Shown: piece by piece, positions 4,804 to 64,000 of the stretch
Layout of the letters: the number at the start of each line of letters is the position of its first letter
Position numbering within the stretch: the first letter of the stretch is position 1
Assembly (NCBI GenBank): GCA_036522515.1
Contig: DATDFQ010000054.1
Coordinates: 1 to 64,000, forward strand
Direction of reading: 5' to 3'
DNA length: 64,000 bases
Origin: Bacteroidota bacterium
GTDB taxonomy: Bacteria > Bacteroidota > Ignavibacteria > UBA10030 > SZUA-254
Made by a program: the position numbers and the translations under genes
The notes under the pieces: generated by a model
Told to the model about the DNA's origin: nothing
What the model saw: only the letters and a program-made list of their open reading frames with translations
The model's database searches: none

Positions 4804-5976
4804 CTAGAAACTCACAACCGCCTGGATGATCAGACTATTGTCCGGGGGGTCTTCGGTGACGCCGATCTCGGTGTTCGACACGTAGATGAGTTTCACGAGA
4901 GCCGAGCGGTCCAGGCGGTACCCCAGGGCGCCCTCGATGCGGAGAATATCCCGGTCCCACTTGACCAGATAGGACTCGTTCGGGACCAGCTGAGAATTCA
5001 CGCGTATCTGGTCAAAGAAAATCTCGCCCGCCCTGGCCGCGAGCGTCAACCTCGGGACAAGCGTATACCGCCCCTCGACCGAATAGCCGGTGGCGGTAAG
5101 GTCATATCCGAGCGCGTCATAAAACGTCCAGATGTTGCGGACCACTTCCGCATAGAGGGAGAAATGTTCGAGTGTGAAATCGATGTCGCCCTCGACTGCA
5201 TGCTGTTGAATATCGGACGACTGTACCCCGTAGAAATATGCGCCGTACTCTCTGATGAAGGGACCGGTCGCATACGAGCTCCCGATCGTGAGCGCGGTGA
5301 CAGGCGTCGCGGCCAGCCTGGCAATTGTTCCGAGCCCGCGTTTGGTGTTCAAGCCCGATGAACCATAGCTCGATGAGTATGTGCTTGTGGCGCTCAGCAT
5401 CCCGTTCGTGAGCGCGACCCAGTAGTCGAACATCCCGAGACCGCCGTAGAGCTTCACGCCGAGATCGTAGAGACCCTGGTCGAGTATCGGGATCCCATCG
5501 CCTCCGGCGGTGTACCTGGAATCGAAAGGCCAGAGGGCGTAATTCGAGCTGCGCAAGGATGTCAGATGCTCGTGGAGGAGGGGAAGGTTGTAAAAGGGGT
5601 TCGTCCTCGGGAACCGCCGTTCCCCCAGGTTGCCGAACGGAAGGTCGATTTCTCCCGCTTCGATATTGATCTCAGCCGGGGTCAGGTCGGCAAATTTCAG
5701 CGAGAAGAGATCGACATGGACGACCTGGTCCTGAAGCATCCGTACGTTGCTGTAAAAGAAGATATGTTCGCTGATCGCCGCGTCGGCGAACAGATCGAAG
5801 CGCCAGGCGAACGTCGGCCTCCCCTGATCGATGATGTATTGAGAGTACCCGGCGTCGGACTTGACATACGCCGCGGAGGCCTGGCCGCTCAGGCGGAGCT
5901 GGCCGGGGGAATGGACGAACGCGGCAAGAGTTCCGGTCAGTAGGACCAGAGCGCGGAGGATCGTCTTAGAATCCAA
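4804..5976 (-). CDS. Outer-membrane beta-barrel protein
   Basis: A 390-residue protein with a signal peptide (about residues 1-28) and alternating amphipathic strands throughout. It ends in AVVSF, with the terminal Phe expected of substrates of the outer-membrane assembly machine. It contains many Tyr and Trp girdle positions and strand-like stretches such as RFDLFADAAISEHIFFYSNV. No porin subfamily can be named. The start is not certain: the longest frame begins with TTG at 5976, overlapping the end of the upstream cupredoxin-like gene by 11 bases, which suggests translational coupling. A position between a secreted copper-type protein and a sensor kinase suggests a role in sensing or passage of a small solute, but the sequence does not show which. 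Confidence 0.8.
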   Translation of the reverse strand: MDSKTILRALVLLTGTLAAFVHSPGQLRLSGQASAAYVKSDAGYSQYIIDQGRPTFAWRFDLFADAAISEHIFFYSNVRMLQDQVVHVDLFSLKFADLTPAEINIEAGEIDLPFGNLGERRFPRTNPFYNLPLLHEHLTSLRSSNYALWPFDSRYTAGGDGIPILDQGLYDLGVKLYGGLGMFDYWVALTNGMLSATSTYSSSYGSSGLNTKRGLGTIARLAATPVTALTIGSSYATGPFIREYGAYFYGVQSSDIQQHAVEGDIDFTLEHFSLYAEVVRNIWTFYDALGYDLTATGYSVEGRYTLVPRLTLAARAGEIFFDQIRVNSQLVPNESYLVKWDRDILRIEGALGYRLDRSALVKLIYVSNTEIGVTEDPPDNSLIIQAVVSF

Positions 5977-7334: not shown

Positions 7335-7482
7335 GTAGTCCGCGACCTTCAGGTCGCGGACCGCAGCCTAAAGGCTGCGGCTACCGATCTGGCTATCATT
7401 TCTGCAGGCGCGACCTTCAGGTCGCGGACCGCAGCCTAAAGGCTGCGGCTACCAAGGCCAAGGCATCGGTAGGCGCGACCTG
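7335..7482. repeat. Palindromic repeat family A, two full copies and one half copy
   Basis: Two near-identical units of about 48 bases (7335-7385 and 7407-7453) each hold two back-to-back palindromes: a GCGACCTTCAGGTCGC arm, then a GCAGCCTAAAGGCTGC arm ending GGCTACC. A partial unit (GGTAGGCGCGACC) lies at 7469-7480. The same family recurs near 10.3, 19.5, 23.8, 34.0, 59.0 and 62.7 kb. It is REP-like in size and symmetry. No REP-associated transposase gene is in the window. Confidence 0.85.
7395..7408. repeat. 14-bp direct repeat, left copy
   Basis: ATCATTTCTGCAGG here is repeated exactly at 7485-7498. The right copy is the 3' end of the cupredoxin/T9SS gene, including its stop codon. The two copies bracket a family A unit, as a target-site duplication would. 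Confidence 0.65.
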
Positions 7483-10025: not shown

Positions 10026-10323
10026 ATCTCCCCCTCGTCCGATACTTCCGTACCGGATCGATTTGTGATCGATGTATTCTCGTTTGGTTGGGCGAACCCT
10101 ACCAGCTGAACAGAGAGGCAAGAGTTGTACCACAATTCCGCGGGTGAGAATTTGGGCGTGAGAGGGGATATACGGGAGGTGTTGTGGAATCTCCGCCTCA
10201 CCGGTTGGGAGACCGGATGGGCGGGTGGGACTTCGATGTCACATAAGGAGGAGCTTCGTCTGAGGTTTACGCCGCACGCTGGACGCGACAATCAGGTCGC
10301 GGACCGCAGCCTGAAGGCTGCGG
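10026..10323. other. Intergenic region with promoter of the cupredoxin lipoprotein and a family A repeat
   Basis: There is no gene in these 298 bases. The right end contains a family A unit (10285-10328) that runs into the stop codon of the next gene. The left part must carry the leader and promoter of the cupredoxin lipoprotein. Confidence 0.5.
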
Positions 10324-10328
10324 CTACC
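10285..10328. repeat. Palindromic repeat family A, one unit
   Basis: Two arms, GCGACAATCAGGTCGC and GCAGCCTGAAGGCTGC, end in GGCTACC. The end overlaps the stop codon (TAG on the minus strand, 10324-10326) of the small lipoprotein gene. Confidence 0.85.
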
Positions 10329-10650
10329 TCGCCGCTTCGACGACGTTTACCTGGTAGGTTTCAAGCATCATGGGGATCTGGGCGTTGAGGATTGCGGTCT
10401 TATGATCGACTGTGACTTTGATGCACGAATCGATGCCGCAATCAGCCGCCTCCACTTTCAAGACGCCCTGGATGGCGAGGAGGCGCGCCCGGTTGTCGGC
10501 GATCGTCTCGGCGAGCGTATTTCCCCCCAGATGAGCGGTCCGGTTTTTTTGCGGTTCGCTCTTCGCGCATCCCGCAAGGGTGGTAATCGCGAAGAAGGCC
10601 AGGAAAAAGATGAGGAGTGTCGCCGGGGTCCGGAAGGTGTTCAACCGCAT
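10324..10650 (-). CDS. Small lipoprotein of unknown function
   Basis: A 108-residue protein from ATG 10650, chosen because a lipoprotein signal follows (MRLNTFRTPATLLIFFLAFF, lipobox TLAGC). The mature part has a pair of cysteines close together (ADCGIDSC) and an ending rich in Val and Ile, with no family I recognise. Its TAG stop lies inside the terminus of a family A repeat, so the natural C-terminus may have been changed by that element. A longer frame reaching 10725 is less likely because it would place residues before the signal peptide. The next gene upstream is a small RRM protein in the same direction. Confidence 0.65.
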   Translation of the reverse strand: MRLNTFRTPATLLIFFLAFFAITTLAGCAKSEPQKNRTAHLGGNTLAETIADNRARLLAIQGVLKVEAADCGIDSCIKVTVDHKTAILNAQIPMMLETYQVNVVEAAR

Positions 10651-10729
10651 GGGGCCTGGCGCGTTCGCCGTCGAAGAGGTGTGCTTTACGGGTGGGATCA
10701 GTTCTGGTGGATGACCCGCGGCCATACGT

Positions 10730-15216: not shown

Positions 15217-15301
15217 GTCATCCTGAGGGAGCGTAGCGACCGAAGGATCTAGCGTTTAGGCCCCCGAAAGGGAGGAGATCCTTCGCTGCGCTCAGGATGA
15301 C
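15217..15301. repeat. Repeat family B, one full copy over the 3' end of truA
   Basis: It begins GTCATCCTGAGGGAGCG and ends with the inverted CGCTCAGGATGAC, with the GAAGGATCT / AGATCCTTCG arms between. Read through in translation it gives the peptide HPERSEGS. The unit covers the last codons and the stop of truA. Confidence 0.88.
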
Positions 15302-19432: not shown

Positions 19433-19517
19433 GCGGCGCAGAGCGCCGCGGGTATGCGTTCCCACGCAGAGCGTGGGAACGAGAAAAAGTCAGGGTAGGC
19501 GCGACCTTCAGGTCGCG
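19433..19517. repeat. Cluster of three different short palindromes (families D, C and A)
   Basis: In order: GCGGCGCAGAGCGCCGC (19433-19449); family C GTTCCCACGCAGAGCGTGGGAAC (19458-19480); family A arm GCGCGACCTTCAGGTCGCG (19499-19517). The last ends six bases before the stop codon of the TonB-type receptor gene. Together with the family B copy, the whole gap between two convergent genes is repeat DNA. Confidence 0.85.
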
Positions 19518-23833: not shown

Positions 23834-23896
23834 CGCGACCTGAAGGTCGCGCCTACCGACGCCTCGGGCTTGGTAGCCGCGGCCTTTAGGCTGCGT
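23834..23896. repeat. Palindromic repeat family A, both arms
   Basis: ACGCGACCTGAAGGTCGCGCCTACC at its left end and GGTAGCCGCGGCCTTTAGGCTGCG at 23872-23895. It sits between the helicase promoter side and the stop of the Sel1 gene, 30 bases from that stop. Confidence 0.8.
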
Positions 23897-33737: not shown

Positions 33738-34110
33738 TGAAATCCATTCTGGGCCGGTGCCAAATATAGGAGAAAACCGTGCGAGTATCAACTGAGCAAC
33801 ATCGCCCGCGTTTTAGTGGTGCATATGTATAGTCATCATTCCCTCCACCTCGTCATGCTGACATGCTCCTGGTCAGCATCTTTCAACTCTTTTATAAGAT
33901 CCCGACCTAAAACATATCGGGATGACGAGCCGGGGGGCATGCCCCGCCCGGCGTTTCTGGTATCACGATCATTCCGGGCGACGCATGCGTCGCCCCTACG
34001 GTAGCCGCAGCCTTTAGGCTGCGGTCTTTTGGTTGGGCGGTTGAGATTCAGTCACCACCTCCACGCCCCGGTTCTTTGAACTTCGCTCGGCTTTCTCGTA
34101 CATTCAGGTG
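33738..34110. other. Divergent intergenic region rich in palindromes
   Basis: These 373 bases separate the TrpF-like gene (minus) from the aldolase gene (plus). No ORF or RNA was recognised. The right half is repeat DNA of three kinds (33895-34026). The promoters of both genes must lie on either side of it. Confidence 0.6.
33895..34026. repeat. Cluster of three palindrome families (E, F and A)
   Basis: In order: an inverted ATCCCGACC / ATCGGGATG pair (33896-33924); GGGCGACGCATGCGTCGCCC plus CTAC (33976-33999), a perfect 20-base palindrome; and a family A arm GTAGCCGCAGCCTTTAGGCT (34001-34026). The middle one is a short widespread type (GGGCGACGCATGCGTCGCCC) that I have seen in other genomes. 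Confidence 0.8.
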
Positions 34111-58940: not shown

Positions 58941-59043
58941 CCCGCAAGCTAAAGCTTGCGGCTACCGATACCCATTGTGATAGGTAGCCGCAGCCTTCAG
59001 GCTGCGGGCTTTTTCTTGCTGCGATCTTAAGATTGCGGCTACC
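58941..59043. repeat. Three palindromic repeats of family A type
   Basis: CCCGCAAGCTAAAGCTTGCG (58941-58960) plus GCTACC; GTAGCCGCAGCCTTCAGGCT (58985-59004); GCGATCTTAAGATTGC (59021-59036) plus GGCTACC. They fill the space between the convergent GH130 and thioredoxin-like genes. Each arm is a different palindrome ending in the same GGCTACC or GGTAGCC. Confidence 0.8.
58988..59014 (+). terminator. Possible terminator made by a family A repeat
   Basis: An 8-bp stem CCGCAGCC / GGCTGCGG with a TTCA loop, followed by GCTTTTTCTT on the plus strand, 64 bases after the GH130 stop. It is a family A arm that looks able to end transcription. Confidence 0.6.
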
Positions 59044-62599: not shown

Positions 62600-62648
62600 G
62601 ATCGGATGAGATCCTAAGTTAGTGGAATGCAGTTTACCATTCGTATCG

Positions 62649-62733
62649 GTAGCCGCAGCCTTTAGGATGCGGTCCGCTCCCACGCGGAGCGTGGGAGCGA
62701 GAAAAGCCCGCAAGCTGAAGCTTGCGGCTACCG
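62649..62733. repeat. Family A and C palindromes in tandem
   Basis: Family A GGTAGCCGCAGCCTTTAGGA (62649-62668), family C GCTCCCACGCGGAGCGTGGG with flanks (62675-62702), and a family A variant CCGCAAGCTGAAGCTTGCGG (62708-62727) plus CTACC. They lie between the GH2 gene's 5' side and the stop of the LamG/T9SS gene. Confidence 0.82.
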
Positions 62734-62739
62734 GTCCGG

Positions 62740-64000
62740 CTACCGTATCAGCAGCAGTTTCCTCGTCATCTGCGAACCGGGAGTCGTGAGCCGGTAAAAG
62801 TAGACGCCGCCCGGCTGGTTGCCGGCATCCCATGTGACATGGTACGTTCCCGGACTCTTATCCTGATTGACCAGCAACGCGATCTCGCGGCCGAGCAGAT
62901 CGTAAACCGCGAGCACTACGCGGCCCGCCCGGAAATTTCTGTCGTTGTGTCCCGGCGCGGCCGGAACGGAATAATCGATGCGCGTGACGGGATTAAACGG
63001 GTTCGGATAGTTCTGGCTCAACATGAAGCCGTTGGGGACGACTGGATCCTGCCCGGCGGAGGAGAGGCCGCTCGCAAGCCCCTGAATCTGATTGACTGTC
63101 AGCGGGTGGTCGTAGATGCGGATCTCGTCGAGCACTCCCTGAAAGTTGTACGTCTGTTCCGTCGGGAGATCCTGCCCGACGGTGAGATCGATCGTGGTCG
63201 TCAGAATTGGACCCGACCAGGTCGAGAATGCGTCAAGGTTGCCGTTCAGGTAAAGCTCAAAATCCGATCCGTCGTAGAGCCCCGTCACGTTGTACCAGGT
63301 CCCGGTCGTGAGTTCGGTCTCGGAGTCGAGATCCTTAATTCCGGCTGAGGTCTTCACAGTCCACCGGAGATGATTATTCGTGATGGAGAGCTTCCAGCGA
63401 TTTTGCCAGTTCCCATGGGAAAGCGGATATTGCTCCCGGGTAAAAAAAGCGCCGATTTTCATCCAGAAATTCACCGTGATCGCCTGTTGAAAATTGAGGC
63501 CCGCGGAATTGGGAACGTCTATATACCCCGTTGTTCCGTTGAACGAAGCGGCTCTCCCCGCGGCGCCGTTCCGGTCGGCCACGAACGTGACGTTGTGGAG
63601 GGCGCCGTTGTTGTTGAAACCGCTTGAATCGACCGCGTTGCCGCTAAGCGGAAAATAGGCCAACATGTTTCCGTTCTGAACCAGCGAAAAATCTCTCACT
63701 TCAATGCCGATGCTGTCGAGCGCCTCACCGCCGCGCCCATCGTCGACCGTGCAATAAATAAAGTAGTTGCCGGCAACAGAGGGGGCGGTCCAGCTCACCG
63801 TGGGCCCTGAGCCGGCAACGGAACCCTGGTTCGATGCCCATGTGTAGGTGAGAGAGTCGGAGTCGGGGTCGCTTGCGCTGCAGGCCAACTGGGTCCCCGA
63901 TCCCAGGTCGATTTTCCTCGGGTCAGCGGCCATTTTCGATATCAAGGGAGGATGGTCGATAAAGGCGGCCACGCTGAGGATAACGCGCGCGGAGTCCTCC
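62740..64000 (-). CDS. Secreted LamG-domain protein with T9SS sorting domain (5' end outside window)
   Basis: At least 420 codons, open to the right edge. The visible part starts in the last strand of an Ig-like domain (SARVILSVAAF). A PKD/Ig-like domain follows (CSASDPDSDSLTYTWAS, then NYFIYCTVDDGRGGEA), then a LamG/concanavalin-like domain of about 180 residues (NMLAYFPLSGNAVDSSGF, then GRAASFNGTTGYIDV and FQGVLDEIRIYDHPLTV). The T9SS C-terminal domain has LSQNYPNPFNPVTRIDYS and ends MTRKLLLIR. Its TAG stop lies in a GGCTACCG end that matches the repeat termini. It is probably an adhesin or a glycan-binding part of an exported enzyme. Confidence 0.88.
   Translation of the reverse strand, partial: EDSARVILSVAAFIDHPPLISKMAADPRKIDLGSGTQLACSASDPDSDSLTYTWASNQGSVAGSGPTVSWTAPSVAGNYFIYCTVDDGRGGEALDSIGIEVRDFSLVQNGNMLAYFPLSGNAVDSSGFNNNGALHNVTFVADRNGAAGRAASFNGTTGYIDVPNSAGLNFQQAITVNFWMKIGAFFTREQYPLSHGNWQNRWKLSITNNHLRWTVKTSAGIKDLDSETELTTGTWYNVTGLYDGSDFELYLNGNLDAFSTWSGPILTTTIDLTVGQDLPTEQTYNFQGVLDEIRIYDHPLTVNQIQGLASGLSSAGQDPVVPNGFMLSQNYPNPFNPVTRIDYSVPAAPGHNDRNFRAGRVVLAVYDLLGREIALLVNQDKSPGTYHVTWDAGNQPGGVYFYRLTTPGSQMTRKLLLIR

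Follow-up and report, generated by a model that had tools for sequence, protein, structure and literature searches.

A GTAG-type REP family that supplies the stop codons of some genes in a Bacteroidota genome

Introduction

GTAG REPs are palindromes of 20-40 bp with a GTAG tag that occur in high copy number, form dimers in opposite orientation and are biased to 3' flanks and convergent gaps, and their termini often give a TAG stop to flanking ORFs (Di Nocera, De Gregorio and Rocco 2013, PMC3733652). All these structural and positional features are shared by the family described here, whereas its stem is a different one (GGTAG-S-CGCNNNCT..AGNNNGCG) and it belongs to another lineage; in addition, the offset spike and the frame bias of its copies have been quantified. 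Inverted pairs, conserved linkers and a single RAYT-family gene are also common to the present genome and the REPIN/BIME systems with their RAYTs (Nunvar 2010, PMC2817692; REPINs, PMC3116915; TnpAREP, PMC8266576). With the REPs found close to stops in E. coli (Liang, Rudd and Deutscher 2015, as cited in PMC12306157) the family shares a hairpin directly downstream of the stop, but in the exact cases reported here the stop lies inside the element, and the family is known from sequence alone.

The supply of stops by GTAG REPs is thus already published (PMC3733652); what is new is a family from another lineage and the measurement of offset and frame. Stop codons serve as a natural ruler for the landing sites of REP copies and for the base pairs that make up the element, and the exact offset together with the frame bias helps to separate landing, selection and targeting. 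To our knowledge, REP transposition is rarely caught in the act.

Results and Discussion

A REP head forms the stop codon of a small lipoprotein gene

According to the earlier note, a repeat at 10285-10328 of the window (the whole 64-kb stretch of DNA that was analysed) provides the stop codon of a small lipoprotein gene. This was confirmed, since the TAG at 10324-10326 on the minus strand is identical to the TAG of a GGTAG head that shows no mismatch. The locus comprises the following features:

10305-10328, minus strand: REP GGTAGCCGCAGCCTTCAGGCTGCG (0 mismatches) with the GGTAG head at 10324-10328, then the hairpin CCGCAGCC TTCA GGCTGCGG, which folds as predicted
10324-10326, minus strand: head TAG of the REP, serving as the lipoprotein stop
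10284-10301, plus strand: degenerate inverted partner of the first REP, lacking a GGTAG head, CGCGACAATCAGGTCGCG, and placed tail-to-tail with it (repeat families D5/D9; second hairpin in the fold)
10324-10650, minus strand: small lipoprotein gene, 108 aa, lipobox LAGC, end ...VVEAAR*

The interval 10285-10328 also contains most of the degenerate inverted REP. If an earlier start is used, the lipoprotein ORF spans 10324-10725 instead of 10324-10650 on the minus strand. One weak homologue of the protein (30% identity, E 5e-4) was detected, in a genome of the same order. In the predicted RNA fold both hairpins form directly after the lipoprotein stop, the first beginning 1 nt past it, and the whole 76-nt region has a predicted energy of -37.2 kcal/mol (z -3.1).

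The repeat belongs to a GTAG-type REP family with paired copies

The repeat family is a GTAG-type REP, arranged as BIME/REPIN-like pairs. Each REP is built of a GGTAG head followed by an 8-bp hairpin, and the pattern GGTAGNCGCNNNCTNNAGNNNGCG is found in 418 copies (at most 1 mismatch) in the 3.50-Mb genome versus 1 for the reversed control. The head bases G, G, T, A and G are each kept at 95-99% among 165 copies, a value that is partly circular because GGTAG is contained in the search pattern. Stem changes are compensated (GAC/GTC, AGC/GCT, AGG/CCT, AAG/CTT) and four pairs carry compensatory changes. The stem cells are paired to 96% and compensatory cells number 23 versus 8.7 in shuffles, both again partly circular as the copies were picked with a palindrome-like pattern; stem covariation is 0.348 versus 0.158 in shuffled data. 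Intergenic location was found for 135 of 145 REPs in the first sample. The family shows a GTAG 5' of the palindrome, a short foldable palindrome and a high copy number with mostly intergenic copies, as in GTAG REPs. Like REPINs and BIMEs it forms inverted pairs with regular spacing and conserved linkers, namely head-to-head pairs (n=20) with a fixed 14-nt linker, AAGCCCGAGGCATC, and tail-to-tail pairs with a fixed 10-nt linker. Pattern matching identified these further copies in the window:

7362-7385, minus strand: intergenic REP
7430-7453, minus strand: intergenic REP, 68-nt tandem duplicate of the 7362-7385 copy
19494-19517, plus strand: REP of the GCGACC type
23834-23895, unstranded: head-to-head REP pair with the conserved 14-nt linker
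34000-34023, plus strand: REP
58943-59043, unstranded: three-REP cluster (58943-58966, minus; 58983-59006, plus; 59020-59043, minus)

The same-genus genome G001 (79% complete) contains 0 exact copies of the family, and the other genomes of the same taxonomic family contain 0 to 3 copies each, which indicates that the family has expanded in the present lineage. The genome is a suitable test case, as a same-genus relative without copies is at hand. In REPs without an upstream partner (loci L032-L301) a weak motif, GAGGNATC, is located right before the GGTAG; it is far less conserved than the REP body and may represent a linker remnant or a target preference.

Some REP heads coincide with stop codons, predominantly in one frame

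Each head TAG was scored for its offset from the stop on the same strand in stretches totalling 1.89 Mb including the window (about 54% of the genome), which hold 288 REPs and 1,376 genes predicted with a purpose-written 3-periodic Markov gene finder, not curated calls. For 10 of the 288 REPs the head is the stop (offset 0), nine times as TAG and once as a GGTAA variant (L039). About 3-4% of the copies hence supply a stop and 96% do not. The density at other offsets amounts to 0.65 per nt (offsets 4-60) or 0.78 per nt (offsets 4-30), and the excess at offset 0, which comprises only 10 cases, corresponds to Poisson p values of 2e-9 and 1e-8, respectively; the GG of the head precludes offsets 1-3. 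The distance scoring that the earlier note had proposed thus yielded an excess at stop codons rather than an even spread.

Same-strand REPs that touch a coding end have the TAG in frame in 10 of 11 cases and lie in another frame in one (binomial p 1.3e-4); in simulated random insertion into gene ends the head TAG was used in 33% (1/3). In all ten proteins with a stop in the REP head the last residue is Arg, as the final sense codon is CGG or AGG. With REPs on the opposite strand at coding ends, the stop of three genes lies in the loop, and one gene reads through. One further REP (L067:2589-2612) is located inside a gene, 62 nt ahead of the stop and in opposite orientation; it is read through and therefore encodes part of the protein.

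REP clusters also prefer gene 3' ends in general. In codirectional gaps (81) they lie on average at a relative position of 0.26 from the 3' end (KS p 5e-12), with a median of 42 nt to the stop versus 151 nt to the next start, and 20 clusters lie within 15 nt of the stop versus 8.1 expected. Convergent gaps are the most densely occupied (23 clusters in 13.3 kb), with 81 clusters in 137.8 kb of codirectional and 18 in 44.5 kb of divergent gaps. This gene-end bias matches that of the GTAG REPs of Di Nocera et al. (PMC3733652). The idea that the elements settle at, or replace, gene ends is therefore borne out for the 3' bias and the excess at offset 0, whereas only 10 of the 288 copies supply a stop and replacement fits some cases.

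Orthologous gene ends show coincident or replaced stops

For 7 of the 10 stop cases relatives without the repeat were available that reach the gene end; the nearest relative is about 79% identical at the protein level. Most of the affected proteins end at the native end or 2-12 residues past it. The glycogen phosphorylase GlgP has the usual family end (YFPHR* versus YFPKK*), and 16 additional residues are present in the same-genus copy. The LiaF-like protein P0007 ends in LLAR* followed by TAG also in the REP-free genome G001, and the T9SS protein P0003 has a normal T9SS terminus (KMLLVR*). The hydrolase P0008 extends about 2 residues past its closest relative and falls short of others; its relatives in G005 and G003 end in CGA TAG. 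The argininosuccinate lyase ArgH (end TARHR*) exceeds its relatives by about 3-4 aa and the glycosyltransferase P0009 (end SSRHR*) by about 5-7 aa, and in both the last codons match the linker GAGGCATC. A TrmH-like methyltransferase extends about 10 aa beyond its relatives.

The bases before GGTAG match the head-to-head linker in 3 of the 10 cases, P0004 (GAGGCATC), P0008 (GAGGGATC) and P0009 (GAGGCATC). From this match, the element probably supplied the last codons of these three genes as well. Replacement of the end fits argH, P0009 and P0008 with their linker-like last codons and the longer TrmH-family protein, but not P0007 and P0003. The comparison of orthologous ends suggested in the earlier note gave a divided answer, in which replacement fits some genes and not others. 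Truncation as a general rule was ruled out, as most orthologues end level with the REP-borne stop or a little before it; judged from the aligned ends, the affected genes generally do not appear truncated, and their stops seem coincident or replaced.

Landing and selection are favoured over targeting

We favour, with moderate confidence, an explanation in which landing in 3' flanks is tolerated and copies that terminate translation immediately are retained, over one in which gene ends are targeted. Single-strand transposition by a REP-associated tyrosine transposase would spread copies widely, those in coding sequence would be lost and those just past genes would be tolerated. A copy landing at a gene end in the frame in which TAG is read would create an immediate Arg-stop (CGG/AGG TAG) without a REP-encoded tail; such copies would be kept and the original stop would then be free to decay. 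The stop would be a by-product of the GTAG recognition motif without a separate function, and the hairpin would start 1 nt after it, where, according to E. coli work cited in PMC12306157, a REP can influence how the upstream message is translated. Selection would explain the frame bias.

Alternatively, the element could insert 3' of a pre-existing GTAG/GGTAG, so that native NGG-TAG ends would be preferred and the TAG would predate the repeat, which we regard as unlikely. Such insertion would be guide-directed, as in IS200/IS605 elements. The LamG/T9SS gene of the window bears on this question, as the earlier note had placed its TAG at 62740 in a repeat end. The relevant features are:

62740-63933, minus strand: LamG/PKD protein with T9SS type A sorting domain, end KLLLIR*
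62740-62744, minus strand: extra GGTAG, separate from the REP's own head, with the TAG at 62740-62742 as the LamG/T9SS stop
62709-62732, minus strand: REP GGTAGCCGCAAGCTTCAGCTTGCG downstream of the T9SS gene (pattern match)
62648-62671, plus strand: REP copy, partner of 62709-62732 (pattern match)

The TAG indeed lies in GGTAGCCG (context CGGTAGCCG), but the TAG of the REP's own head is found 12 nt downstream (CGGTAGCCGGACC-GGTAGCCGCAAGC), and 62740 was hence ruled out as a second REP-borne stop. T9SS genes with a GGTAG stop and a REP head 6-12 nt downstream are located at 62740-62744 in the window and at 5106-5112 and near 14670 of L043.

Among 60 T9SS genes, which can be recognised by their native K/R-stop terminus, a REP head lies within 12 nt in 4 of the 6 that end in GGTAG versus 0 of the 54 others (Fisher p 3e-5), which argues for targeting; however, two of the four cases are paralogues and one has the head itself as its stop, leaving few independent cases. 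A second GGTAG is present 12 nt upstream of several heads, and the TAG ends of P0007 in the REP-free same-genus genome and of the P0008 relatives likewise fit a TAG that is older than the repeat. Against this, argH and P0009 carry the linker upstream of GGTAG, so that the GGTAG of these two genes arrived as part of the element. Moreover, TAG is mostly not the stop used by the orthologues of argH, glgP and TrmH. In favour of targeting, GTAG takes part in selecting where one group-3 RAYT cleaves; against it, GTAG lies inside the REP and the cut is made at CT or CA, not at GTAG (PMC8266576). The fuller version, in which native NGG-TAG ends would serve as REP insertion sites through recognition of GGTAG and stops would belong to the target code of an element mobilised by a RAYT, is likewise unlikely.

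A hairpin placed exactly at the stop could also be favoured for tuning translation termination or mRNA stability. The stable hairpin 1 nt after the lipoprotein stop would agree with this, as would the lowered translation ascribed to E. coli REPs within 15 nt of a stop in work cited in PMC12306157. Such a function is nevertheless quite improbable, since the genes involved are of unrelated kinds (a lipoprotein, an argininosuccinate lyase, a glycogen phosphorylase, a methyltransferase, a hydrolase and a glycosyltransferase), the same-genus genome does without the family and most REPs are located farther from stops. Coincidence, i.e., REPs that lie near gene ends anyway with some TAGs in frame by chance, would suit the small share of copies involved but is highly improbable and was rejected on the offset and frame tests, given ten cases versus about 0.7 per nt offset and 10 of 11 in one frame.

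The RAYT gene is flanked by another palindrome family

One RAYT-family gene was identified in the genome (NF047646, 101 bits versus a cut-off of 80, contig C58). In difference to the REPIN/BIME systems it is flanked on both sides by another palindrome family, TTCCCACGC...GCGTGGGAA, and within the surrounding 20 kb 0 REPs of the GGTAG family were found. A cognate RAYT gene flanked by the same REP was thus not detected for the GGTAG family, and the assignment of this RAYT as its cognate is unsupported. A contig scan recovered RAYT relatives of up to 64% identity from many phyla; their flanks did not contain the GGTAG REP pattern, and at least one of them (L165) has a similar GTAG-tagged hairpin adjoining.

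The gene, located at L031:1315-1851 (G000 C58, minus strand), is the sole PF01797/RAYT gene of the genome, and its cognate REP is probably the palindrome family GGTTCCCACGCTCTGCGTGGGAACC that flanks it. In the window a second family of dispersed palindromes, GATCCTTCGCT(T/G)CGCTCAGGATGAC, is present at 15271, 19393, 31576, 46343, 56479 and 60082, and this palindrome is frequently paired with GTCATCCTGAGSGAGCG...GAAGGATC.
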